A program made the position numbers and the translations under genes. A stretch of 64,000 nucleotides of DNA from NCBI RefSeq assembly GCF_026210795.1, contig NC_089442.1:3038001-3102000 (forward strand), given 5' to 3'. Below the pieces are notes generated by a model. That model was not told the origin of the DNA, did not search any database, and saw only the letters and a list, made by a program, of their open reading frames with translations. The stretch's first letter is position 1. Every line of letters begins with the position of its first letter. Source of the stretch: Rhizophagus irregularis. Taxonomy: Eukaryota; Glomeromycota; Glomeromycetes; Glomerales; Glomeraceae. Below, one piece after another: positions 1-48,822 of the stretch.

Positions 1-570
1 TTAAATTTTCTTGGAGAAGAACGAGAACGGGATCCTGAAACTAAAATATATCCTCAAATTCCTGAAGATTTCAACAAAGCAGAAAATGTTCTTATCATGT
101 TAATTGCAATATATTTTTTTGCAAAAGTGTGGACTAGATCAAGTATTGAGAAGTGTAAAGAATTAATATCTGAAACTATGAACTATAAGGAAATTATTAA
201 ATTAATTCGTAAAGAAATGAAACTGGATGAAGATGCCCATTTAGTCTTAATTTTGCAAATTGATGATTTTCAGTTCTCACCTTATTGGACAGTCGTATTA
301 CTTCGCATCATATCTTACATTGTGGAAACTAATAAGACATTAATATTTTCAGTATGTACTGGCACTGAACCATCTAAAATTTCAAATTTGTATGGGTTCT
401 TTGCATCACAATATAGAACTAACAATATTAATTTACCACCTATAAACTTCACTCAGTTCATTAAGTATTATGAAGAGAATTATAATGTTTATCAATTGGA
501 AAAATATTCTCCTCCTGATGGACCTTTGACGAAAAGTCATCATTTTGTCTTAGAAAAAAAAATAGAATAA
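1..570 (+). CDS. P-loop ATPase family copy, cut by window edge and C-terminally truncated
   Basis: The frame is open from base 1 to a TAA at 568-570, so the 5' part lies outside the window. The 189 visible residues match the middle of the complete minus-strand ATPase gene at 3601-6464 along nearly their whole length (for example IYFFAKVWTRSSIEKCKELI is shared). The Walker B stretch reads LQIDDFQF, where the complete copy has LQIDEFQF, so the usual catalytic Glu is Asp. A sensor-like strand ending in VCTGTEPS follows. After an FIKYYEENY segment the similarity stops and the protein ends about 330 residues earlier than the paralogue. It is most likely a truncated duplicate, possibly a pseudogene. 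Family is assigned by comparison inside the window; the biochemical role is unknown. Confidence 0.6.
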   Translation, partial: LNFLGEERERDPETKIYPQIPEDFNKAENVLIMLIAIYFFAKVWTRSSIEKCKELISETMNYKEIIKLIRKEMKLDEDAHLVLILQIDDFQFSPYWTVVLLRIISYIVETNKTLIFSVCTGTEPSKISNLYGFFASQYRTNNINLPPINFTQFIKYYEENYNVYQLEKYSPPDGPLTKSHHFVLEKKIE

Positions 571-1324
571 AACTATTTTATTAATTACTTTTACAATAAA
601 CTAATATTAGTAAAACTATTTTTATTATTTCTTAAATAATATAGATTAAAACTACTATTTTATTACTTTTATAATGAAACTATAATTCATTTACATTTTA
701 TTAAATTTAATAAACAAATAATAACAAGACCAATTACTTAATAAAATTTAATAAACAAATAACAAGACATTCAATTACTTAGAAGCGAAATAATTAATAA
801 GAGCCTGTTTAAAAATTTTTTATTGTTTAAAAATTGTGAAATTGTCTTTTTTTTTGTTAACAACCAGTTCAAATAATTGTCACGTGACACATGATTATCA
901 AATTTTTTTCTAATTAAAAATAATTATAATTTATATTTATAGAATACTGAATATTCAAAATGACCTATTTTTTCACAAACTTCATAATCCACGTAAGTAA
1001 TGATTTATCATTTGATTTTTGAAGTTTTTATTAAATCTGATTTATTGGGCGAAATTTCAGTTAACCATTAAAAATATGTGTAAAGTTCTTAACTCATTAA
1101 GCCAAATGAGCAGTTCAAAGCTAAGCATTTGTTCAACCCCTATCTCATTAATAAAACATACCTTCCAATTAATACCAGAAATAGTTTACAAAAGAATTAA
1201 TATTTGGAAATTAGTATAAAAATAACTAAATTTATAATTACCGAATACAGCATTATCATAAAAAATTTAAAAATATTTAATTCTATTAAAAATGGAAAAA
1301 TGGATTAAATCCATCCAAAACGTG
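571..1324. other. AT-rich intergenic stretch, no gene seen
   Basis: Only short A/T runs and one 66-codon open frame at 1019-1219. That frame has no ATG at its start, no recognisable motif and no codon bias, so I do not call it a gene. Confidence 0.5.
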
Positions 1325-1846
1325 GTTTTGCAATGGGTAATGATGGTTGGACTGGTTGTATAAAAATTAACTCATGAATTTTTCTTATATTATTACTCAT
1401 TATCTATTTTCTCCATCTTTGTCTAACATTATCTGGTGATTATATTCACTTTTTAGCTGCAAATCTCTTATTTTTTTTTTATATTTTATAAATCTGTATT
1501 ATTTTCTCTATAACTATGTTGATGAATAATTATTGAAGCTTAAGACATTACACAATTATAGTATGAATAATATGAATGATCTTTTGTTTTGCAATGGGTA
1601 ATGATGGTTGGACTGGTTGTATAAAAATTAACTCATGAATTTTTCTTATATTATTACTCATTATCTATTTTCTCCATCTTTGTCTAACATTATCTGGTGA
1701 TTATATTCACTTTTGAGCTGCAAATCTCTTATTTTTTTTTTATATTTTATAAATCTGTATTATTTTCTCTATAACTATGTTGATGAATAATTATTGAAGC
1801 TTAAGACATTACACAATTATAGTATGAATAATATGAATGATCTTTT
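1325..1846. repeat. Perfect-length tandem duplication, 2 x 261 bp
   Basis: Bases 1325-1585 are repeated directly at 1586-1846. By eye the copies differ at one base: TTTTTAGC in the first, TTTTGAGC in the second. Even the ten-base T run is the same length, so the duplication is very recent or is an assembly artefact. No coding frame is shared. Confidence 0.95.
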
Positions 1847-2112
1847 TGAGAAAATAAAAAAATGATTTCAGAGCCTAAAAAAACTAATGTTCAATTTGAC
1901 ATTCAGGATTCTTGTAGCATTAAAGTACAAGATAAATTTTTGCAGGATTTTACAATGGTTAGTGTTGATTTATTTCCTGACACTATATATCTTGTATTAA
2001 TATATCAGATGACAGTTTTGTTTTTATTCCATCCAGTATATTGATATTTAATCACAAGAATGACTCACTTAAAAAAAATCCATAAAAAGACACCCTGATT
2101 ATTAATTGAGAA

Positions 2113-2159
2113 ACTTATTATAAATTGCAACTTATACAATGTTGCAATTTATAATAAGT
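2113..2159. repeat. Perfect 19-bp hairpin with 9-bp loop
   Basis: The left arm ACTTATTATAAATTGCAAC (2113-2131) is followed by a 9-base loop and its exact reverse complement (2141-2159). It lies just upstream of the composite element at 2212 and may be a tiny foldback element or a transcript hairpin. Confidence 0.85.
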
Positions 2160-2211
2160 ACAGTTAACTCTCCACACATATTATCACCACTGTTAAAAGA
2201 GCTACTCTCAG

Positions 2212-3223
2212 AGATAATGGTGTAGTTAGCCGAAAAATTCAGCCAAAGGCGCAGTAAATTTCATCTAACAGCCAAAATATCCAAATAGCAGTCATTGCTC
2301 ATGTAACCTCCTAATTCACTTTTATTATGGTCAATAGTACCCTCTTCAAATATATAAACATTTGTAAAGTTTAAAATCAATCTAAACTTGTTTAATTGGC
2401 TAAATTAATGATTTTTGAATCCATAATTCTGGCCAAAATTTTCTTAATTCTGGCCTAAAATTGATTAAGTTGAAAATTTCAGGTAAAATTATTTATACAA
2501 AATAATCTCAGTCTCTAAGTGTTTATTGAAATATTTTTTCAAATGCTTTTTGTTTTTTGAGTTGGATCTTAGCTAAAAATTAGTATATTTAAAATAAATA
2601 TAATGCAAAAACTTGAAATTTGTCAAAGATAGTGAATAATATAAGACTTTAAATTAAAACAAAAAATATTTTTCGCCATTGTATAATAAAAAGAAATGTA
2701 TGTATATTTTCAAATAATTAAAAAAAATTCTCTTTTTTATTTCATTTGTATAATTGTATTATTATAGTTTTAATGGTAAAATAAAACTATTCATTAATTT
2801 AAAGAACAATTAAATATTAAAAAAATTTCTTTTTTACAATTAAATTACTAAAAATCTAATATTGAAGTATGATTGGACAGAAATAAATAAGTTAAAAATA
2901 ACAAATATTTTGTAGTTTTATTTAATTAAAAATAATGCACTATTCAAAAATAAGATAGTAAATAGTAATGTTATGTACTTCTTGTTTTCTATAATAAATG
3001 AAATTTTGTCATTATTTCATATTGACTGCTATTTGGATATTTCGGCTAACTACACTATTATTTAAAAAAAGTGTATTTAGCCGAAAATATTCAGCCAAAA
3101 ATAGTTAGATGTTGAACCAATAAAATATTCAAAGATTAATATGAATTTTTTTCGGCTGGGTGTTGTTAGCCGAAAATTTACTGCGCCTTCAGCTGAATTT
3201 TTCAGCTAACTACACCATTATCT
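2212..3223. mobile_element. Composite inverted-repeat element (MITE-like), about 1.0 kb
   Basis: The ends are long imperfect inverted repeats: 2212-2262 (AGATAATGGTGTAGTTAGC onward, with GGCGCAGTAAATT inside) matches the reverse complement of about 3172-3223. A second inverted pair lies inside: the AGCAGTCA region near 2272-2298 against TGACTGCT at about 3025-3050. A further internal end-like sequence sits near 3050-3090. A TA dinucleotide flanks ATGGTGTAG on both sides, which would suit a Tc1/mariner-type target site, but the flanks AGATA and TATCT are themselves complementary, so the exact boundary is uncertain. No transposase frame is present; the element is non-autonomous. Its middle matches a second copy at 38010-38762. 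Confidence 0.65.
2375..3024. repeat. Dispersed repeat core, copy 1 (second copy at 38010-38762)
   Basis: Shared blocks include AATCCATAATTCTGGCC, AAAAACTTGAAATTTGTCAAA and TCATTATTTCATATT in the same order and at similar spacing at 38010-38762. The copies differ by many substitutions and small indels, so they are old. The core lies between the AGCAGTCA and TGACTGCT inner repeats of the 2212-3223 element. Confidence 0.75.
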
Positions 3224-3600
3224 AATTTCAAGCCAATGAGCCTGTTTGGTATAAATTTATACAAAAACTATTTACTGGGATATTGGAAATATAATTATTT
3301 GTAACATATATCACCTAAAAATAATTGCTGTATCAAGAATTTTTTTATAATTACTTTAGATTACATAAATAAAAACTTTTTATACAACTAGATTAAAGTT
3401 AACTGAAATTTTATTTAAAGTTGTTTTTTGAAATTTATTTTATTTAATTATAGCAGAAGTTAAACTAAAGCTTTTTTTTTTGAATTTAATAAATTGTCAA
3501 CTGTAATATAATAATTTCAAAAAATAAAATAACAATTATATAATATGATATATATTTTTAATAAAAGGAGAACAAAAAAAGGGAGATGAAAGAAAAAAAG
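3224..3600. other. AT-rich 3' flank of the ATPase gene
   Basis: No coding frame. It is the downstream side of the minus-strand ATPase gene and probably holds its 3' UTR and poly(A) site. Several AATAAA-like words occur, but none can be singled out in this composition. Confidence 0.4.
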
Positions 3601-6464
3601 TTATAAAAATTGTACATTGGTTGCAATGTTTCCAGTGAGAATTGCATAAGGACTAATAAAGTCAAGTAAATCCTCCCCAGCTACAACAGCACAATTCTCT
3701 GGGATCTCTGTTCTGTTACCTATGAAAGTTTTTGGAGAAATAAGGATAAATCGTTCACATCCTCTTAAAGTTTTTTTTGCTTCATTCTTAAGAATATTTA
3801 TGTCAATTTCTCCTGTTGAATTTGTATGGATTGGATGCCCAGACTCTAAAGCTAAACTATACTTATATTGCTCATCACCATGTGGTGTTAATGCATCAAC
3901 TGAATGAGTTCTTCGTGCAATCAGAACTAGATACTTACCTAAAGTAATGTCAATTTCTTTATACCCTAGAGGACCTGAACATACTACTGGAATATTTTTT
4001 CTATCTTTTAGTCCAGGTTTAAAAAATTCATCATATTTACCTTCTTCCTTAGGTATCAATCCTGAATGTTCATAGTACTCAATTTCTTTAACTTGAATCT
4101 CTTTATTTCTGAAATTATTTGAGCAAATACCATTCCCACCATAAATTTCTGTAAAAGTAATTGTGGAAATACCAAGAAGATTTGCTAAGCCATATGTGGC
4201 TTGATGCATACGAAGCATAAATTTTGGAAATGATTCTTCATTTAATAAAGTAAAAGGACTTAAAAGTAATTTATCAAAAATGTTATTTAAATTTAAGTAA
4301 TCCACTAATATGGATATTATAATCAATGGAGCTCTTGGAATGTAATTATCATAATCAAACTCTTCAAGATAAATAAGACCACCTATCTCAAATTCTTCGA
4401 TTGTATATTTAGAGCCAAAGATTTTGTCTTTCTTGGTAATGATAGATTGAGTATGTATAAAATATAATAATAAAATAACATTATTTTCATCACCTAAGCA
4501 CTCCAACCATAGTCCTTTGGAATATTTAATCTTTACATGATTACACAATAAATCCCAAAATTGTTTTGCCACATCATAACTTTCAAATACATTTGATTTT
4601 TTATCTAAAATTACTCTTGTTGCGATTTCAAGTATCATTGGTATTCCCCTTATGGCATTCACTATACTAATATAAATATTATTTTCTACAAGTGAATCTG
4701 CATCATAGTTATTATCAAAATACCTAATAAACTTATTAAAAGTTTGTGAAGATTCACTTAAATTCATTGGTGGTAAATTTAATTTTGCAGTACGATACTG
4801 TGATGCACAAATTATATCCAAAGAAGATATTTGGGATGGTGCAGTACCAGTACATACAGTAATTATTAGCGTATTATCGGTCTCTACAATATCAGCTATA
4901 ATACGAAGAAATGTAGTTGTCCAATATGATGAGAATTGAAATTCATCAATTTGCAAAATTACGACTAAAAGGGCATCTTCATCCAGTTTCATTTCTTTAC
5001 GAATTAATTTAATAATTTCCTCATAGTTCATAATTTCAGATATCAATTCTTTACACTTCTCAATACTTGATCTAGTCCACACTTTTGCAAAAAAATATAT
5101 TGCAATACACATATTAAGAATATTTACTGCCTTTTCAATGTCCTTGGGAATTCGAGGATATGTATTTGTTTCAGGATTCTGTTTTTGTTGTTCTCCTAAT
5201 AAATTTAAAATCTCTTTCATATTAATAAATATATGTTTGAAGTTTACTTTGAAAGTTTTTACACATCTTTGAATCCGGTCATCTTCAGCAATAAAGTTCT
5301 CAATTTCAAATCCTATACGAGTCTTTCCAACACCATTTCCACCATAAATTATAATACCCTGATAATCTTGCTTACGATTTGTACCATATACAAGAAAAAT
5401 GTTAGTATATATATGGTTACAAATGCTTTCTTGTATATTAAGGCGTGGGATAAAGGGAACAAATATGACAGGTTCTTCATCAGCTGAAAAATGGTCTCCA
5501 AGCTCCAATAATGATTCAAAAGAGATTTTATTTATCTTGTTAGATTCTAAGGATAACATCACAAATTAGAAATGAAGAAATTGTTTTGTAATAACAGTAA
5601 TATTAGGAAAAATATAACCTGTTGGCTCATAAAGAGAAAGTGGACGTAAACGTTTTCCTGCATAAAATGAAAATGTTTAAGAAAATGAAGTAAAGCAATG
5701 GGAAAGCCAAGTCACATTCATTGTGTTGACTAATTTTTTATGACTTACTTACCAGTTACAGTTTGTTCTATGAAATGGAAGTGTGATGGTAAGGAGCAGG
5801 AAAAAAATGAGATTATTATTGGTAAATATGACAGTGTACAGAAAATAAAATAAAACAATAGATAAGTCAAGCCACATTTACTGCATTGACTAATTTACTT
5901 ACCAGTAGCAATTTGTTGTCCTATAAAAATGTGAATGTGATGATAAGAAACAGGAAAGAAAAAAAAATGAGATTGGCAAGTACTCAGTATTATTAGTAAA
6001 TATAACAGTACATAGAAAATGAAATGAAACAATGGTTAAGTCAAGCCACTTTTACTGTGTTGACTAATTTATTATGACTCACTTACCAGTAGCAAGTTGT
6101 TGTTCTATAAAAATGTGAATGTAATGAAAGAAGCAGGAAAGAAAAAAATGAGATTAGTGAGTATTTAGTATTATTGGTGAATATTTCAAAGCACAGAAAT
6201 AATGAAGCCAAACATAATATCAATTATGTAAAATATACCATATGCTAATAATTTTTTGAGACATTTGACTTTTGCTTCATCATCTACTGCATTTTGCAGA
6301 ACACTCTCTGATCTAAACACCTCATCTGGGCACTTGATATAATAAGCTTGTAATCTAATATATTCATCTCTTGTTATTAAATTTGACTTTAACAAGTGGT
6401 TAAGTTCTTGAAAGAATATATTTGGAGGTGTAAAAGCTGAAGTTGAAGCTGAAGAAGAAGACAT
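3601..6464 (-). CDS. Six-exon P-loop ATPase (Crinkler-like architecture possible) with repeated mini-exons
   Basis: Proposed exons, transcript order: 6464-6239, 6104-6087, 5920-5903, 5767-5753, 5657-5619, 5546-3601, giving 753 residues. Every intron is GT..AG and phase 1. Exon 1 starts MSSSSASTSAF and would otherwise run on into intron. The long last exon also has an in-frame ATG at 5559, but a TAA lies three codons upstream in the same frame; splicing 5618-5547 removes both. Walker A GGNGVGKT lies near residue 175, Walker B LQIDEFQF near 305 and a sensor-like VCTGT near 335. The C-terminal 200 residues may be an effector or nuclease domain, as in Crinkler proteins, but I cannot prove that. 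The three mini-exons code for EQQLAT, GQQIAT and EQTVT. The ATPase is well supported; the donor at 5618 (GTTATA) is the weakest junction. Confidence 0.75.
5696..6205 (-). repeat. Three tandem intron + mini-exon units (about 158, 178 and 174 bp)
   Basis: Units 5696-5853, 5854-6031 and 6032-6205 share blocks such as AAGTCAAGCCAC, TGTTGACTAAT, CTTACCAGTA and AAAAATGAGATTA. On the minus strand each unit holds an acceptor (TTTTATAG or TTCATAG), a mini-exon of 18, 18 or 15 bases and a GGTAAGT donor. All three mini-exons are phase 1 at both ends, so adding or skipping any one keeps the reading frame. The peptide therefore grew by duplication of an intron with its exon. Confidence 0.8.
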
Positions 6465-8963: not shown

Positions 8964-9520
8964 TTTTGAAGTATTTTTTCTCAAAGCTTTAAATTTTGCA
9001 TGACGTTGTGATTAAGGTTGCTTGCCGAAACCTGTTTGGCCTAATGCCGAAAGGTGAAACCTCTTATATAGTGCTGAAACGCCGAAACGCCGAAACTGCG
9101 AAACCTGTCAAAATTGCGAAACTGCCGAAACATGCCGAAACCTCTATAATAGGTTTCTCCGTAGTTTCGGCATAGTTGATCATAAGATTTGCATATAGTT
9201 ACGCCAAGTTACACCAATTAATAATATAATTTAGATGATCAAATAATCTACAGATAAAAGATTAAACTTCAATATTTTACCGTCGTCTTAGTTCTTTTAA
9301 GCTTTATCTAGTGTTAGAATTTTCATTTCTAACTCCCATATTAATATTATGATATTACACGTTTTTACAGTTTTTTTTTAAGGGGCTTATATTCATTAAA
9401 GGAAAATGCGTAACATGCATTTAATAAACCCAATTCCGTCATCTCCTTTAACACTGAACTAAAGTTTCTTTTACTTTCTTCCGTTTTCTTAATAATAATA
9501 TTAATAATAAACTGTTTCAA

Positions 9521-11821
9521 ATGACTGATCACATAGAAGATTCACCCATTAAAATGAAAAATAGAGGAGGTCGGCCACCTAATAGCATTTGGGAAGATAT
9601 TAATAAAGGAGAAGCTGTTGGTTCTGGCAAATTTGCCGCCTCCTGCAAGTACTGTAAGAATACATGGTCACGCGGTGAAGTTTCAAAGCTCGAAGAGCAT
9701 CTTTCAAACCATTGTCCAGATGCGCCAGCAGCAGTTGTTAGAAGGTATATGACTAAAGTAATGGAACGGCAAGATAAGTCCAAGTCATCCAAAAAAAGAA
9801 AATACTCTGAAGGTCAAAGTAACATGGATGATTACCATGATTCAACAGAGCTTAACGAACAAAGATGTACACGAATTAATCGTGCATTAGTTAAATTTTT
9901 TATTGCGTGCAGAATTGCGTTTAGAGTAGTGGAACATCCCTTTTTCATCAATTTTATAAAAGAGCTTAATGCCGGGTACAATACACCAACAAGGGAAGTA
10001 TTAGTAAATCAACTACTTGAACGTGAATTAGCTCAAGTGAACTTCAAAGTTAATTCTGAGCTTGAAAAGAAAACGAATTTAACGTTAGGTTTGTTAAATT
10101 AAATAGGCTATCATACGTCATTTTTATTTAATCTTACTTACTATATAATATTAATTTATAATTTAGCCTTTGATGGTTGGATGTCTGGTACACATCGTTC
10201 AATTTGGAACTTCATTGTAATGACTCCGTCGCGTAAAGAATATCTTTATCAACTTTCTGATTTGTCTGAAAATTCGCACACTGCAGAATATCTAGTTACG
10301 GTAATTGAAAAGGTTATAGAAGGTATTGGAGAAGATCGAATATGTGCTGTAGTTTCCGATAATGTGGCCAATGTTCGTAATGCACGAAAAATTATACATG
10401 AGAATCATCCAAAGATTGAGAATGTGCGATGCGTTGCACATTCTATCAATTTAATTGCATGCGACATCGTCAAGGAGAAGTTTGGGGAACGTTTATTAAA
10501 ACGTGTTAATATTTTGACAACCTTTTTTAGAAGTTCTCATCAGGCTAATGCAAAACTTGCTCAAATAATTAAAGAAAAAGGAATTAGTGGAGGAGGATTA
10601 AAATTATATTGCAAGACACGCTGGACTACTGCTAGTGAATCCGTAAATTCAGTAATAAATTTGGAATCAGCACTAGAAGAAATGGCCAGCGATCACGATA
10701 AAGTGCTAACAAATAATAAAATAAAACCGATTATTCAATCGAGAAATTTTTTTTCAAATTTACGAGTTCTTGGGTTTGTTCTGGATCCTCTAAGAAAAGC
10801 GGTACTTTCATTAGAATCGAGAAGAGCTACACTTGCAGATTGTTTCCTGAGCTTGGCAAGACTTGCAGCTACATTAAAAAAGTTACCCAAATCATTAAAT
10901 TCTGCATTCCAAAGTCATTGTATCAAAGTAATAAATGAAAGATTTGATGAATTCGATGATAATAAGTATATTACTTGTTTTTTTATGGATCCCAGATTTA
11001 GAAACGCGCCACTTAAAAAATGCGCCCTCATGAGAATTATCAAATGTGCAGCTTCAATCGGGAAAAATTTAGGTTTCGACTGTTACGAAGCTGAAACTTT
11101 ATGTGATCAAATACAGAAATATATTAATGAGCAAGAGCCATTTGACCTAGATATCGGTTTTGCTAAAGATAATCCCGTGAATTGGTGGAAATATATTAAT
11201 ACCGAACCAGAACCAGATGTCCTGCCAAGAATTGCAAGTTATCTATTTGCAATATGTCCTAACTCAGCAACTTGCGAACGTGGATTTTCGACTTTAGGAT
11301 GGCTATTTCATAAACGTCGCTTAAATCTTAATGTGGATAAACTAGAATCCATGTGCAAATTAATTTTGTATTGGAAATCCAATTCAAAAACTGAACTTGG
11401 ATTTTATGGAATTGATCAAAAAAAGAATACTCGTCTTAGTGATGATGAGATCAATATACGTATTGCAGAAGCTTTTGCAGAAGATGACGATGAGGAATAT
11501 AATGAGGAGCAAGCTTCTACTCAGAGATTAACTACAAGTGGCGAAACAATACCTGAAGACAATTGCCGTGTAGTAATCGAAAGTCTATGGATTGATCAAT
11601 TTGTTAATTTATCGCATGATTCAATTACTAGTGAAATCGGCGATATTCCAAGAGATATATTGGATGATTCAGATGAAAATAATGCGGAAGATGATGAAGT
11701 TGATGATAGTGGTAATAACAAGAGACCCGGAGAAGGTGACTATGATTATGATATAGATGATGTATTAGGTATGGATGACGGTGATAATAATGATGATAAT
11801 TATGATAATAATGAGGAATAA
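9521..11821 (+). CDS. hAT-family transposase with BED zinc finger
   Basis: Two exons, 9521-10088 and 10167-11821, joined by a 78-base GT..AG phase-1 intron. The join makes LTLAFDGWMSG, the typical first catalytic Asp region of hAT enzymes. The product is 740 residues. An AT-hook-like RGGRPP (15-20) precedes a BED-type finger (C42, C45, H60, then H64 or C65). Catalytic candidates are D192 in FDGW, D254 in VVSDN and a Glu near 560 in SATCERGFS. The hATC dimerisation region follows (FHKRRLNLNVDKLESM). The C-terminal tail of about 90 residues is very acidic. No internal stop or frameshift was seen, so the enzyme may be functional. It should bind the GCCGAAAC-rich ends and cut and paste the element in the nucleus. 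Confidence 0.93.
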
Positions 11822-16845: not shown

Positions 16846-17537
16846 TAGAGCTCCGCACAGGTCAGGTCAGGTCGGGTTACCTGGTTAACCCTAACCAAAA
16901 TTTTTTTTCAGGTCAGGTCGGGTCAGGTAAACCATTCTGACCTGACCCGACCCATTTGACCCAAAAGTATTCATGTCACTTTGGGTAACTCAGGTTACCC
17001 AAAGTTTTATTATTAAATATTGTAAAAAAACGTTTTGTAACATTTTTTACTTTTTGTTTTATATAAAATGCTGAAACTGATAGTTTCGGCATTTTTTTTT
17101 TCGATTTTACATGTAAAAACGCCGGAATCATTAGTTCTGGCATTTTTCCTTTTGAATTTACATGTAAAAACGCTGAAACTGATAGTTTTGGCATTTTTTT
17201 CGATTTTACATGTAAAAGCGCCAGAATAATTAGTTCTGGCATTTTTCTTTTTGATTTTACATGTAAAAACACTGAAACTATCAGTTTCGGCATTTTTTTT
17301 CCGATTTTACATGTAAAAATGCCGGAATCATTAGTTCCAGCGTTTTTCTTTTTGATTTTACATGTAAAAACGCCAAAACTGATAGTTTTGGCGTTTTTTA
17401 ATTTATTTGACCCAAATATATGTCAGGTCAATGGGTCTGGTCGGGTACTGACCAGCACGAATTTGATGACCTGACCTGAATATTTTGGGTCAACCCGTCT
17501 GGTCACCTGATCTGTTGGGTCAGGTTGCAGAGCTCTA
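16846..17537. mobile_element. hAT MITE, 692 bp, with internal hairpin minisatellite
   Basis: The ends are TAGAGCTCCGCA and the complement of TAGAGCTCTGCA, flanked by a perfect 8-bp duplication AAATGGGG (16838-16845 and 17538-17545). Subterminal zones repeat GGTCAGGTC, GGGTCAGG and ACCTGACC words. The middle (17065-17405) is a minisatellite. The long minus-strand open frame over it only reflects the repeat and is not a gene. Confidence 0.95.
17065..17405. repeat. Minisatellite of seven alternating hairpins
   Basis: The unit is about 50-54 bp. Each contains a short inverted repeat. Type A reads GCTGAAACTGATAGTTTCGGC and type B GCCGGAATCATTAGTTCTGGC, with small changes. They alternate A-B-A-B-A-B-A and are mostly separated by the palindrome-containing TTTTACATGTAAAA. 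Within arms, changes on one side are often matched on the other. Confidence 0.85.
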
Positions 17538-28823: not shown

Positions 28824-28944
28824 GGAGTAGTAAAGGAGTAGTAAAGGAGTAGTAAAGGAGTAGTAAATGAGTAGTAAATGAGTAGTAAATGAGTAGTAAC
28901 TGAGTAGTAACTGAGTAGTAAATGAGTAGTAAATGAGTAGTAAA
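28824..28944. repeat. Minisatellite, 11 copies of an 11-bp unit
   Basis: The unit is GAGTAGTAAAK: a run ending AAAG, then AAAT, then two with AACT, then AAAT again. The length is exactly 121 bp. Because 11 is not a multiple of three, it reads open in several frames as a false protein. Confidence 0.95.
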
Positions 28945-29506
28945 TATTCCATTAAAAAACCACGAATCAGCATGAATCATAATAAAAACCTTTTTAGTAC
29001 AATTAATTATCATATAAAAATTGTTCTCCTTACATTTTTTTTCCCTGATTTGAATATCTGATCCATTTTTATTTTTTTTTATAATTCCGAAATTAGTTAA
29101 TTTAAAATTAATTATAGGAAAGAAAAAATCGTGGTGAAACAATTAATTACATGTAAACTGTATATATATTATATATATATATATATATATAAAAGGTAAA
29201 TGAAACTTGAAATGTTTCATGTTAAGGGATTTTTTTATGGATCTACAGTATATCATAAGTACCGTGCTTGTAATTTTATTATTATCGTGCTGTAAATTAT
29301 TATCGTGTTTGTTTAAATTATAAATTATTACAAATTTTTTTTTTTTTCAAGAAATTCAATAAATTTCAATTAAACCACGTTGTTTATTTGAAATTTTAAA
29401 GTTTTTTGGTTTAATCCATTAATAATTATCTTTTTGTTTTTTTTCCTTTTTATTGTATAAGAAAATAAATTTAGGTTAGAAGAATTTTTTTTTTTTCACA
29501 TACACA

Positions 29507-29865
29507 AATTATTGAATCTAACGTATTATTATAGAGTATTGAATCTAACGCATTATAATAAAGTATTGAATCTAACGCTTATTATAAAAGTATTGAATCT
29601 AACGCTTATTATAAAAGTATTGAATCTAACGCATTATTATAAAAGTATTGAATCTAACGTATTATTTAAAAATACACAATCTATCGCAAATTATTGAATC
29701 TAACGCTTATTATAAAGTATTGAATCTAACGTATTATTAAAAATACACAAATTATTGAATCTATCGCAAATTATTGAATCTATCGCAAATTATTGAATCT
29801 ATCGCAAATTATTGAATCTAACGCATTAAAAATACACAATTATTGAATCTAACACATTATTATTA
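29507..29865. repeat. Minisatellite of TTGAATCTAACGCATTAT type
   Basis: Thirteen TTGAATCTA cores are spaced 18-45 bases apart. Two variants alternate in blocks: CTAACGCWTATTATAAAGTA and CTATCGCAAATTA. Confidence 0.9.
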
Positions 29866-42986: not shown

Positions 42987-45900
42987 ATGGTTCTCAGTAA
43001 TGATAAAGGTAAAAATCATACATATAGCATGGAAAAAGTTTCAAGTGACACCAAGGAACTTGAAGGTAAATATAATATATTAAACAAGCTGAAATGTTAA
43101 AATTAATAAATACTATCTATTATTATACCTTATATACATATAATTTAAACTAACTAACTATATTATATAAATTATATTAAATAACTTAGCTCGTAAGTTA
43201 ATAGGTTATCTTATAATTGAATAATAATAAAGTTACTTATTTTTTGTTATATACCATATAACTAAAGATTCATTTAATAATCAATAATATTATAGTTCGT
43301 AAGTTATCAGTATTTAAATATTTAGTTCTTTATTTTAAAATATCTAAATTTTTTGTTTAAATAACTATTTAATAATTATTACAGATGGTAAGTTACAACA
43401 TTTAATAATTATATTTATTTGTTTAATATTTTATATAACTCAACTAATTAGATTCTTTACTTAAATAACAAGACTGTGAGTAATATATTTAGTTTACATA
43501 CTTTGGTATTATATTTACATCTAACTAATTAACAATTAAATAATACTACAGGGTGTAAGTTATATGTTATGTTTCTATTATTTATATAATTTAAGCTAAC
43601 AAAACTCTATTTACAAAATTATTTTGTAATTTCTTTTAGTTAGTAAGTTATAAGTTATTTATTTAATTCTAATGTTATATTTATATTATAATATTTAATT
43701 TAATTTAAACTAACTAAATTCTTTATTTAAAAAATTATTTGTAATTTCTTTTAGAGCGTAAGTTACCTATTATTACACATTTATATAATATTTACGCATA
43801 ATCCAAACTAATAATTCTTTATTTAAAAAATTATTTATTATATAGCGTGTAAGATATTTATTTAATTTTATCATTACATATTTATATAATACTTACATAT
43901 AATTTAGAATAACTAAATTTTTTATTTAAAAAATTATTTAATAATATAGCGCGTAAGTTATTTATTTAATTCTATTATTGCATATTTATATAATATTTAC
44001 ATATAATTTAAACTAACTAAATTTTTTATTTAAAAAATTATTTATATTAGGGAGTAAGTTATTTATTTAATTCTATTATTACATATTTATATAAATATTT
44101 ACATATAATTTAATTTTTTATTTAAAAAATTATTTATATTAGAGAGTAAGTTATTTATTTAATTCTATTATTACATATTTATTTAATATTTATATATAAT
44201 TTAAACTAACTAAATTCTTTATTATTTTATTATTTGTAGAGTGTAAGTTATAAGTTATTTATTTAATTCTATTATTATATATTTATATATTTAAACTAAC
44301 TAAATTCTTTCTTTAATATAGGGAGTAAGTTATTTTTTAATATAAAATTTACATATAACTTAAACTAACTAAATTCTTTATTTAATATAGGGAGTAAGTT
44401 ATTTATTCAATTCTACTATTACATATTTATATAATATTTACATATAATTTAAACTAATTAAATTCTTTATTTAATATAGGGAGTAAGTTATTTTTTAATT
44501 TTATTATTACATATTTATATAATATTTACATATAATTTAAACTAATTAAGTTCTTTACTTAAAAAATTATTTTGTAATTTCTTTTAGTTGGTAAATTCTA
44601 AGTTATTTATTTAATCTATTATTACACATTTATAATATTTTAAACTAAGTAAATTTTTTATTTAAAAAATTATTTATTAGGGAGTAAGTTATTTATTTAA
44701 TTCTATTATTACATATTTATTATTAACTAAAATCTTTATTTAAAAAATTGTTTAATATAGCATGTAAGTTATTTATTTAATTCTATTATTATATATTTAA
44801 ATAATATTTACGTTAACTAAATTCTTTATTTAAAAAATTATTAAAATTATTTAATAATATAGCATGTAAGCTATTTATTTAATTCTGTTATTACATATTT
44901 ATATAGTAATTACATATAATTTAAACTAACTAAATTTTTTATTTAAAAAAATATTTGTAATTTCTTTTAGATTGTAAGTTATAAGTTATCTATTATTACA
45001 TATTTATATAATATTTATACATAATTTAAACTAACTAAATTCTTTATTTAAAAATTATTTTATAATTTCTTTTAGATGGTAAGTTATAAGTTATTTATTT
45101 AACATATAATTAAAACTAAATTAATTCTTTCTATTAGAGAGTAAATTACTTAATTTAAACTAACTAAATTCTTTATTTAATCATTTTGTAACTTCTTTTA
45201 GAGTGTAAGTTATAAGTTATTTATTTGATTCTATTATCACATTTTTATATAATATTTGCATGTAATTTAAACTAACTTTAATAAAAAAATTATTTAATAA
45301 TATAGTGGGTAAGTTATTTGTTTAATTCTATTATTTACATATTTATATAATATTTACATGTAATTTAAATTATCCAAGCATTTTAACAACAACATTGACT
45401 AAAGGACCACTTTCATAGAATGCGGTCGCACATAAGTCAATATTGATCATCATTTTACCTAATTAATGAAAATAATCTAAATTTTTTATTAAAAAAATTA
45501 TTTTGTAATTTCTTTTAGATGGTAAGTTATAAATTAATTTATTAGATTCTATTATACATATTTAAATAATATTTATATGATTTAAACTAACTAAATTTTT
45601 TATTTAATTAGAACGTAAGTTATAAGTTATTTGTTTAATTCTATTACTACATATTTAAATAATATTTACATATAATTTAAACTAACTAAATTCTTTATTT
45701 AATATAGGGAGTAAATTATTTGTTTAATTCTATTATCACATATTTATATAATATTTACATATAATTTAAACTAACTAAATTCTTTTATTTGACTAGAATG
45801 TAAGTTATAAGTTATACATATTTGTATAATATTTACATATAATTTAAACTAACTAAATTTTTTATTTAAAAATTATTTGTAATTTCTTTTAGACGGTAAG

Positions 45901-48822
45901 TTATAAGTTATTTATTAGATTCTATTATTACATATTTATATAATATTTATAATTTAAACTAACTAAATTCTTTATTTAATTAGGACGTAAGTGATAAGTT
46001 ATTTATAATTCTATTATTACATATTTATATAATATTTTTAATATTTACATATATTCTTTTAGATGGTAAATTATATGTTATATTTATTTAATTCTATTAT
46101 CGTATATTTATATAATATTTACGTATAAATTAAACTAACTAAATTCTTTATCTAAAAAATTATTTATTAGGGGGTAAGTTATTTATTTAATTCTATTATT
46201 ACATATTTATATATAATTTAAATTAACTAAATTCTTTGATTAAAAATTATTTAATAATATACTAGTTTGTAAGTTATCTATTATTGCATATTTATATAAT
46301 ATTACATACATAATTTAACTAACTAAATTTTTTATTTAAAAACTATTTAATATTATAGGGAGTAAGTTATTTATTAAATTCTATAATTACAATAATATTT
46401 ACATATAATCTAAACTAACTAAATTCTTTATTTAATTAGAACGTAAGTTATAATTTATTTATTTAATTCTATTATTACACTATTTATATAACAATATTTA
46501 TATAATATTTACATATAATTTAAACTAACTAAATTTCTTATTTAATTAGAGCGTAAGTTATAAGTTATTTATTTAATTCTAATATTACAATATTTATATA
46601 ACAATATCTATATAATATTTACATAAAATTTAAACTAACTAAATTCTTTATTTAAAAATTATTTTGTAATCCTTTAGGGCGTAAGTTATCTATTATTACA
46701 TATTTGTATAATATTTACATATAATTTAAACTAACTAAATTCTTTATTTAAAAATTATTTTGTAATTTCTTTTAGGTGGTAAGTTATAAGTTTATTTAAT
46801 TCTATTACATATAATTTAAATTAACTAAATTCTTTTATTTAAAAAATTGTTTTATAATTTCTTTTAGGGCGTAAGTTATTTACTATTACATATTTATATA
46901 ATATTTACATATCAGATATAATTTAAACTAACTAAATTCTTTATTTAAAAATTATTTTGTAATTCCTTTTAGGGCGTAATTTATCTATTATTACATATTT
47001 GTATAATATTTACATATAATTTAGACTAACTAAATTCTTTATTTAAAAAATTATTTAATATTATAGCATGTAAGTTATTTATTTAATTTTATTATTACAT
47101 ATTTATAACATTTACATAAATTTAAACTAACTAAATTTTTTATTTAAAAAATTATTTACTAGGGGGTAAGTTATTTATTTAATTATATTATATATAATTT
47201 AAACTAACTAAATTCTTTATTTAAAAAATTATTTATTTATATAGGGAGTAAGTTATTTATTCAATTCTATTATTACATATTTATATAATATTTACATTTA
47301 ATTTAAACTAACTAAATTCTTCATTTAAAAAATTATTTAATAATAGCATGTAAGTTATTATTATTTCTATTGTTTAATATATATTTTATATAATATTTAT
47401 GAATTTCATTTATTTAAATAATATTTATTACTTTAGTTGGTAAGTTGTAAATTATAGGTTATTATTGTATATTTATACAAATATTAAGATTTATATTATA
47501 TTAAATTCTTTATTCCTATTTAAATTTTATAGAGTAAGTGTTAATTTTAATTTTAAATTTTGGTGTAAATTTTAATATAAACTTTAATATAATTTAAACT
47601 TTAATTATTAGATTTGGAAAAAGTGGAAATGCAATTGTAGATAAATTTATTTTTGAAAAAAAATTTAAATGGATTCCTTATAATCAATTTGAAAATGTTG
47701 AATATCTTGATAAAGGAGGATTTGGTACTATATACAAAGCTATTTGGTTAAAAGATAATGAAAATAAAGAAGTAATTCTTAAATGTAATAATAATTTAAA
47801 TGAAAATTTAAATGAATTTTTAAATGAAGTATGATAATATAATATTTACTTTTTAATTTGAATTATAATTTATTTATGCTAAAATATTTTTATTTTTTTT
47901 GTAGTGGAAATATCATGAAAGTTGTTTAAATTCACATTTTATTATTTATTTTTATGGATTTACAAAAGATCCAGATACATTAAAATATATGGTAGTAATG
48001 GATTATGCAAACAAAGGTAATTTAAGAGGAAATTTAACAAGAATAATCAAAAATAATTGGAAACAAAAATTATATATGTTACATGAAATTATTTCTGGAC
48101 TTGATGAGATACATAAACAAAATCTCATTCATTGTGATTTTCATGATGGTAATATTTTAAATCATAATAACAAGATTAGAGATAAAATTTATATTAGTGA
48201 TTTAGGATTATGTCAACCTGTAAAATTATTTTTGAAAAAGTATGATATTTATGGTGTTATACCATTTATGGCACCTGAAATTTTAAGAGGCAAATCTTAT
48301 ACTCCAGCTAGTGATATATATGGTTTTGCTATGATTATGTGGGAATTTACATCTGGGGTACCACCATTTAATAATATAGCACATGATATTCAACTTAGTT
48401 TAAGTATTTGTAAAGGTGAACGGCCTGAAATTATTGAAAATACTCCACAATGTTATGTAGATTTGATGAAAAAATGTTGGGATGAAGTTCCATCAAAAAG
48501 ACCATCTTCTGAAAATGTATCAAATATTATTAGAGAATGGATTTTTCTTCCAAGTGAAGTAAAACTTGAAGATATTAATGAAAAATTAAAATGCGATATT
48601 ATGGAACTTATAAATGCACCAATTGGACATACCAATCTTGCTACTGAATCTCACCCACAATCATGTTATATAAGTCGCTTGCTTGATTTTACTAGTAAAG
48701 AATTGAATGAAATTCTTGAAAGTGAATATTCACAAGCTAATGTAAAAGTGAATAATGAAATGCCAGTAAGTGAAGATTTGAATGATTGTATAATTGAAGA
48801 TATAAAATCATTAGGTATGTAA
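42987..48822 (+). CDS. TKL-like protein kinase split by an array of single-codon micro-exons
   Basis: Model: exon 1 at 42987-43065 (MVLSNDKGKNHTYSMEKVSS..), 45 exons of 3 bases (43190 to 47439), a 1-base exon at 47533, then 47612-47828 and 47905-48822; 1350 coding bases, 449 residues. Exon 1 ends in phase 1; triplets keep it; the 1-base exon shifts to phase 2, as the kinase exon needs. Kinase features: WIPYNQF lead-in, glycine loop KGGFGT (about 106-111), Lys129 in VILK, catalytic loop HCDFHDGN (Asp222), DLG in place of DFG (Asp243), MAPEI, DIYGFAMIMWE and a final Arg in KRPSS. The fold is complete, so it is probably active, on unknown substrates. The micro-exon peptide is about 46 residues, basic and aromatic-rich. 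The last two exons are secure; exon 1 and the micro-exons rest on splice-signal pattern and phase. If they are not used, the start would lie elsewhere. Confidence 0.75.
43066..47611 (+). repeat. Tandem intron array with 45 three-base exons and one one-base exon
   Basis: Each unit averages about 97 bp: a GTAAGTT-like donor, usually AAACTAACTAAATT (branch motif CTAAC), a TTTCTTTTAG or ATATAG acceptor, then exactly three bases before the next donor. Exon starts and bases: 43190 CTC, 43296 TTC, 43385 ATG, 43473 ACT, 43552 GGT, 43640 TTA, 43755 AGC, 43846 CGT, 43950 CGC, 44051 GGA, 44143 AGA, 44240 AGT, 44322 GGA, 44391 GGA, 44480 GGA, 44588 TTG, 44681 GGA, 44761 CAT, 44873 CAT, 44971 ATT, 45076 ATG, 45138 AGA, 45202 AGT, 45306 TGG, 45519 ATG, 45612 AAC, 45708 GGA, 45797 AAT, 45893 ACG, 45984 GAC, 46063 ATG, 46171 GGG, 46266 TTT, 46359 GGA, 46440 AAC, 46550 AGC, 46678 GGC, 46776 GTG, 46868 GGC, 46973 GGC, 47067 CAT, 47163 GGG, 47245 GGA, 47347 CAT, 47437 TTG; then 47533 A. 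By hand count 70 of 135 exon bases are G or C. Confidence 0.88.

Follow-up and report, generated by a model that had tools for sequence, protein, structure and literature searches.

The window analysed here is a 64-kb part of the Rhizophagus irregularis genome (146.7 Mb in 32 contigs). It contains a predicted protein kinase gene whose 5' part is a tandem array of exons of only 3 nucleotides (nt), separated by A+T-rich introns that belong to one repeat family. A first coding exon precedes the array and two kinase exons follow it. Between the array and the kinase lies a predicted exon of a single nucleotide, which an earlier note on this DNA did not mention (Table 1).

Table 1 Predicted exons of the array-bearing kinase gene in the window.
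Feature	Coordinates	Strand	Remarks
Predicted first coding exon	42987..43065	+	79 nt, ends in phase 1; MVLSNDKGKNHTYSMEKVSSDTKELE + G; 26 amino acids (aa) identical in NCBI protein P0001
Array, 45 exons of 3 nt	43190..47439	+	A+T-rich introns of one repeat family in between
Starts of the 3-nt exons	43190, 43296, 43385, 43473, 43552, 43640, 43755, 43846, 43950, 44051, 44143, 44240, 44322, 44391, 44480, 44588, 44681, 44761, 44863, 44971, 45076, 45138, 45202, 45306, 45519, 45612, 45708, 45797, 45893, 45984, 46063, 46171, 46266, 46359, 46440, 46550, 46678, 46776, 46868, 46973, 47067, 47163, 47245, 47347, 47437	+	
Predicted 1-nt exon (A)	47533..47533	+	Restores the kinase frame; TAG/A/GTAAGTG
Kinase exon 1	47612..47828	+	FGKSGNAIVDKF...KWIPYNQF...GGFGTIYKA...
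Kinase exon 2	47905..48822	+	Ends at stop TAA

Sites of the form AG-NNN-GT[AG] number 46 between 43060 and 47620, where 4.6 are expected for that length, against 60 in the other ~59.4 kb of the window. One of the 46, at 47535, overlaps the site of the 1-nt exon, leaving the 45 consecutive acceptor-triplet-donor units (43190 to 47439) that the earlier note had counted. Its other counts were reproduced as well: 24 kinds of triplet with 70 G+C among 135 bases, acceptors that are nearly all TAG (42 TAG, 2 CAG and 1 AAG), and 45 sense codons with no stop when the triplets are spliced and translated in the phase of exon 1. The donors are GTAAGT in 37 units and GTAAAT in 4, with four single variants. 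The 46 introns measure 59-210 nt (median 91.5); CTAAC is present in 28 of them, with the branch A placed 22-42 nt before the AG.

Exon 1 leaves one base, so that a codon of the array begins with the final base of a triplet and takes its other two bases from the triplet that follows (a 1/2 split). In this phase the predicted spliced frame runs through all 45 triplets and the 1-nt exon, is open between the ATG and the stop of the kinase, and encodes 449 aa; without the 1-nt exon, the kinase falls out of frame. Residues ~99-350 of this protein match PF07714 (PK_Tyr_Ser-Thr, 1e-39) and PF00069 (Pkinase, 1.4e-35). Peptides present only in the spliced prediction include ELEALHDWFKPSR, IGTSYYEK, YGHGVWK and GRPWGTFEFGK, the last of which spans the array, the 1-nt exon and the kinase exon.

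The earlier note had taken the array as a single one; it is instead one of many in the R. irregularis genome. The pattern TTTAG-N3-GTAAGTTA has 838 genome matches, against 23 for its reversed control. With the same flanks, spacings of N0-2 (three lengths) give 60 matches (reversed control 85) and spacings of N4-9 (six lengths) give 116 (reversed control 200). A second pattern, AATATAG-N3-GTAAGTTATTTATT, has 1,162 matches and none in its reversed control, and a pattern for units with the triplet CTC, which is common as the first unit, has 157 (control 0). From about two thirds of the clusters among the first 100 pattern matches listed, we took 20 stretches of DNA. By the strict pattern, 19 of them hold arrays of 13 to 75 units, and no array was found in the remaining one, L047. 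Together with L051 and L052, which were added through kinase matches, and with the window, 22 arrays were examined.

A protein kinase lies downstream in 21 of these 22 arrays, and in 19 it is within the stretch. In L034 it lies at and just past the end of the stretch; in L052 the first kinase exon is inside and the second beyond. The array of L046 has 17-19 units, and no kinase was found in the rest of its stretch; this locus is possibly a decayed gene. In L042, an array-like run at 145-5613 has wide gaps and stops in some joined readings; it is irregular and possibly decaying, and a kinase match lies downstream. Judging by the clustering of the listed matches, we would guess at perhaps 100-200 arrays in the genome. 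Loose extrapolation puts the units at several thousand: 6,205 when both patterns are used, and ~4,100 or 9,700 when only one or the other is. These figures spread widely because the fetched loci were chosen by one pattern.

The length of the exons was scanned in 20 loci with a donor and acceptor matrix trained on 3-nt units, lengths from 0 to 39 being allowed. Among 629 sites, 607 leave exactly 3 nt, 9 leave 1 nt, 6 leave 6 nt and 2 leave 10 nt, with five single longer ones; not one site of 0, 2, 4, 5, 7, 8 or 9 nt was found in this set. An acceptor followed directly by a donor, as in a recursive splice site, is thus missing from it. The chain of units closes on a 1-nt exon in 14 of 20 arrays, the base being A in 11 and otherwise G, C or T. 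The A exon is embedded in a 14-base motif, TAGAGTAAGTGTTA, with 24 genome matches (reversed control 0), 18 of which lie 317-666 bases upstream of a kinase match on the same strand, the list of kinase matches being incomplete. The chain that admits weak sites stopped short in L033, L034 and L045, and a G-rich insertion disturbed it in L035.

The phase found in the window recurs in the paralogues. In the 330 nt 5' of the array, a short ATG frame ending in the same phase is seen in 14 of 19 loci, the window included. Two exons of L036, MALSNDK+G and then VS..TKESK+G, replace exon 1 of the window, and other paralogues look likewise by eye; in window exon 1, a 30-nt in-frame piece sits between the parts that are separate exons in L036. 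The second of these exons (VSxNIEFEGSS...TKESK+G) is visible by eye in many loci. Joined whole, L036 with its 36 triplets forms an open frame of 472 aa. At the other end of the array, the frame is lost within 18 codons in 16 of 17 loci if the kinase exon directly follows the upstream phase; in L036 it lasts for 54 codons. With a single extra base the kinase exon reads open at all 17 loci, a count that is partly by construction, the acceptors having been picked with that frame open. A [DN]W motif, which arises only by joining exons in the straddling phase, occurs within the first 12 residues in 18 of the 22 arrays. The exons had been described as single codons: their length of 3 nt stands, and each of them straddles two codons, to judge by the phases of exon 1, exon 2 and the kinase exon and by the depletion of stops in that phase.

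This depletion was measured in a chain set of 21 arrays and 790 units, with the expectation taken from 1000 shuffles of unit order within arrays. At junctions of nearest neighbours, 1 of 769 joined codons is a stop, against a shuffled mean of 23.6 and a shuffled minimum of 8. For units two apart the stops are 28 of 748 (22.7 shuffled), and for units three, four and five apart they are 24/727, 26/706 and 22/685, with 22.1, 21.4 and 20.6 from shuffling. The other straddling frame has no depletion (135 stops, 121.9 expected). The sole nearest-neighbour stop belongs to L035 and spans a 190-nt gap, in which a looser chain puts a weak ATG unit.

Plain strict patterns, in a set that left out L049 (7 units), lead to the same picture when introns are limited to 130 nt. 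No stop occurs at 522 neighbour junctions, where 19.5 are expected (minimum 10 in 500 shuffles), and 14 occur at 396 junctions of distance two (14.5 expected). Without the two longest arrays the neighbour count is 0/415 against 15.5, and a looser pattern gives 1/680 against 23.7. An earlier version of the analysis, with 20 arrays, had 2 neighbour stops against 19.1.

The triplet of one unit thus depends on that of the unit next to it, on the far side of a ~95-nt intron, and the dependence is confined to nearest neighbours. Consecutive splicing followed by translation predicts exactly such a dependence; we see no reason for it at the level of DNA or under neutral drift of a satellite. The exon nature of the triplets is strongly supported by these sequence data, which also support the predicted anatomy, the family, the coherence of phase and selection on consecutive joins. 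The arrays are, with high probability, spliced consecutively and translated in the straddling phase. The proposal that a kinase gene carries 3-nt exons in tandem in its 5' part, and that these are selected as coding, is in this sense borne out as a prediction.

Junctions of distance two are unprotected, which indicates that full inclusion is the product under selection, since frequent functional skipping would protect them too. The earlier note had seen in the array a design for free skipping; this idea is not upheld, with stops at the shuffled rate wherever the joined units are two or more apart. Combinatorial skipping, by which different subsets of triplets would enter different mRNAs and yield many kinase variants, is unlikely, though it may overlay consecutive splicing and the two do not exclude each other. 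Nearly all units are of 3 or 6 nt and so would keep the length of the frame, and flatworm micro-exon genes are described as varying by exon skipping (PMC7653826). However, ~3.7% of single skips (28/748) would make a stop, and the restriction of the depletion to nearest neighbours speaks against selection for skipping.

Several observations weigh against consecutive splicing and translation of the arrays. We know of no precedent for the splicing of at least 45 consecutive 3-nt exons. When weak sites are admitted, a few exons in the chains measure 7 to 10 nt, and the terminal 1-nt exon was not found by the chain in 6 of 20 arrays. Taken alone, the window is weak, with 0 stops against 2.6 expected (P 0.033). 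When all gaps are allowed, the strict set has 10 neighbour stops at 673 junctions (25.8 expected) and the loose set 8 at 794 (28.6 expected). All 10 stops of the strict set fall in the 151 gaps over 130 nt, where shuffling gives 6.6; it looks as if units had been missed there. The N-terminus of L036, compared with 5.8 billion proteins, returned 43 candidates, none of them at E up to 1. In the frame that takes each triplet as a codon, there are 0 stop triplets among 692 (21.7 expected by columns). Many public models begin at an internal Met in the kinase exon, and those that touch an array read it in other frames that, by eye, are mutually inconsistent.

The internal starts would suit a neutral satellite, lying in one big intron or upstream of the real start, with the kinase translated from an internal Met; such models as P0005, P0010 and P0016 have their first residues, MDNF, in the kinase exon, and the tandem repeat character of the array is clear. 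We regard this as very improbable. If the array were removed as a whole, the frame would be broken in 16 of the 17 loci; the exons are concentrated at a length of 3 nt; and neither the depletion of stops between neighbours nor the agreement of phase has a reason under neutrality.

The absence of stop triplets bears on another alternative, in which each triplet is a codon and the array is reached from another exon and followed by a 5-nt exon (A+GTAA), as the NCBI models P0015, P0038 and P0062 suggest. TAT and TAC are also absent among the 692 triplets, and TGN is rare (7/692). Such triplets may be rare because a T followed by A or G after the acceptor AG makes GTA or GTG, a competing donor; the missing stop triplets would then reflect a constraint of splicing. 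The alternative needs exons of odd length at both ends and would not give a stop depletion that depends on the neighbour. The phases of the upstream exon ends, of exon 2 and of the kinase start fit only the straddling reading. We rejected triplets as codons on these grounds, and hold the chance that this frame is used to be very slight.

The public models themselves reach into the arrays in places. With the first 86 residues of the window protein as query, a single protein, P0001, was obtained among 6 candidates (E up to 10). It is annotated as a kinase-like protein, partial, of Rhizophagus irregularis, and combines an exon 1 identical to that of the window with an array-like segment of 51 aa and the kinase; its best match among the genome regions compared is the window, at 92% over kinase exon 2. 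P0001 was rejected as proof of transcription: judged by triplet usage, frame 0 is the best overall fit for its 51-aa segment, the first part of which fits the straddling phase. Nor does its alignment to the window array go beyond shuffles, of which 209/2000 reach the score in frame 0 and 1064/2000 in the straddling phase. The start of the kinase as query matches 129 proteins at E up to 0.001, and among the 120 listed only Rhizophagus species are named. By eye, array-like segments are present in P0001, P0015, P0038, P0062 and P0008, of which P0062 and P0008 come from R. diaphanus. P0038 corresponds to L052 (99% over kinase exon 2), and its model uses 29 of the 32 detected 3-nt units after a 23-nt exon that runs through the donor into the intron. 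We did not accept P0038 as proof of splicing either, as it leaves out 3 of the 32 units and its frame is shifted by the 23-nt exon and a 5-nt end. As we read these models, gene-finding programs recognise the units but are unable to deal with the 1-nt exon.

The G+C content of the triplets is 0.33, 0.31 and 0.48 by position (755 units), against column means of 0.07 and 0.09 in the flanking introns. Position by position, their entropy amounts to 1.84, 1.37 and 1.98 bits. GT and AG do not vary; up to 1.84 bits are found in the remaining columns of the introns, which are therefore not uniform. Contrary to the claim that triplets vary freely on constant introns, the kind of triplet is partly linked to the end of the preceding intron: the ten bases before AG are identical at 0.64 within one triplet kind and at 0.53 between kinds, and TTG, GGA and ATC each have their own commonest intron end. 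In L035, blocks repeat at an offset of ~1.69 kb with 85-87% identity. Because triplets are linked to intron ends and blocks of L035 are duplicated, units seem to multiply as cassettes of intron and exon. The start of the encoded segment (ALNDW[FY]-like) is conserved in most loci, and its middle differs.

An origin by a burst of introner-like insertions into an older continuous coding segment would leave splicing and translation as described above. The fixed splice signals and differing triplets accord with it. The duplicated blocks and the linkage of triplets to intron subtypes fit duplication of cassettes instead, and a special rule of target choice would be required for insertions to fall at intervals of precisely 3 nt; we consider this origin improbable.

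Two further features of the arrays concern their repeat structure. Within 3820-7230 of L035, a G-rich insertion (GGGGAGGGG) stands at four places of the array, partly copied along with the duplicated blocks. On the opposite strand of the arrays there is a 12-nt spacing, with over 30 sites in some arrays, which we take as a fixed part of the repeat unit.

Under consecutive splicing, the N-terminal segment of the kinase would be encoded by a tandem satellite of units made of an intron and a 3-nt exon. The spliceosome would remove each ~95-nt intron by intron definition, probably one after the other, and join every 3-nt exon to its neighbours; the order of these steps is our conjecture. As the array introns would be in phase 1, each residue would be encoded jointly by two consecutive exons, the end of the first and the start of the second, and the final 1-nt exon would bring the frame into the kinase exon. 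Duplication and recombination of cassettes could add, remove or swap whole codons with no frameshift, recombination being a plausible engine of change in the arrays. In the kinase, the segment may form an N-terminal region that is variable, charged and aromatic and that perhaps serves partner specificity. We put forward, with somewhat less than even confidence, a diversification on the scale of codons in probably more than 100 kinase genes. Homologous introns would act as recombination tracks, and unequal exchange would add, delete or permute single residues and create new junction codons in a kept frame, giving a fast-changing N-terminal repertoire. The kinases with arrays are part of the large kinase repertoire of Rhizophagus irregularis, given as 2,533 members in the available part of PMC10234402, a study that mapped its Nanopore reads of strain DAOM 197198 with introns limited to 3000 nt.

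The closest known kind of gene is the micro-exon gene (MEG) of flatworms. The definition in the available part of Olson et al. 2020 asks for at least 7 exons, of which at least half must be shorter than 70 nt with a length that is a multiple of three, in runs of at least 4 (PMC7653826). The predicted structures fall within it, with 45 of 49 exons of 3 nt in the window, 45 of them in a row, and with 36 in a row in L036. As in schistosome and tapeworm MEGs, runs of short exons in multiples of three dominate the gene and make it hard to annotate. For Schistosoma mansoni MEGs, 10-20 very short exons are described, of 3-81 base pairs (bp) in the abstract or 6-81 bp, mostly 15 bp, in the text, with introns of 100 to almost 5000 bp and secreted products, as far as the available part of the source goes (PMC10526429). 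The fungal arrays differ in having 13-79 predicted exons, nearly all of 3 nt, with homologous introns of ~95 nt, in kinase genes and with no signature of selection for skipping. They also fall outside the flatworm MEG superfamily: the host is a fungus, the domain is that of a kinase, and the N-termini MVLSNDKGKN... and MALSNDKVS... appear hydrophilic by eye, no signal-peptide program having been run.

Recursive splicing and stwintrons are not known to leave exon sequence between steps. The R. irregularis arrays are unlike them in that 3 nt would remain at each step, and apparently be translated. The likeness lies in adjoining intron parts that are removed stepwise, as the available parts of the sources describe for stwintrons (PMC9024468) and for recursive splicing (PMC4674806). 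Accurate splicing of 1-nt or 3-nt exons is known from isolated cases: a constitutive 1-nt exon of Arabidopsis APC11, with a proposed model of sequential intron definition (PMC4674806, available part), and tiny exons of 1 or 3 nt in Drosophila hth and Fusarium CYP621A (PMC7392893, PMC12940212, available parts). In R. irregularis, by contrast, they stand in tandem arrays of dozens. SP7-like effectors (PMC11333574) and AGL repeat proteins (PMC8786786) are likewise variable repeat proteins of Rhizophagus; the available parts of these sources give one conserved intron, before the repeats, for SP7 and one to two introns for AGL, and do not mention micro-exons. Among the listed open-licence matches in PubMed Central, subscription papers being outside this scope, no earlier report of tandem 3-nt exons or of Rhizophagus micro-exons was found.

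If true, this would be the densest use of introns known to us: introns would roughly equal residues in number in segments of up to ~80 residues, and this in many genes of a single genome. It would bear on the minimum size of an exon and on how many tiny exons in a row splicing tolerates. It also suggests that introns can serve as spacers that make the recombination of single codons safe for the frame, and that one class of N-termini of arbuscular mycorrhizal fungal proteins is missing or misread in public annotations.

Elsewhere in the window, two copies of a 261-bp unit at 1325-1846 are 99% alike, which may be a recent tandem duplication or an effect of assembly. Two adjoining long open frames of 214 and 572 aa occupy 9458-11818; the first presumably resembles, by eye, the start of a BED-finger/hAT transposase. 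At 17065-17399, 99-bp units with 51-bp half units read AAAACGCTGAAACTGATAG... and contain long open frames on both strands. Minisatellites with units of 27, 19 and 11 bp lie at 29506-29825 and 28825-28945.

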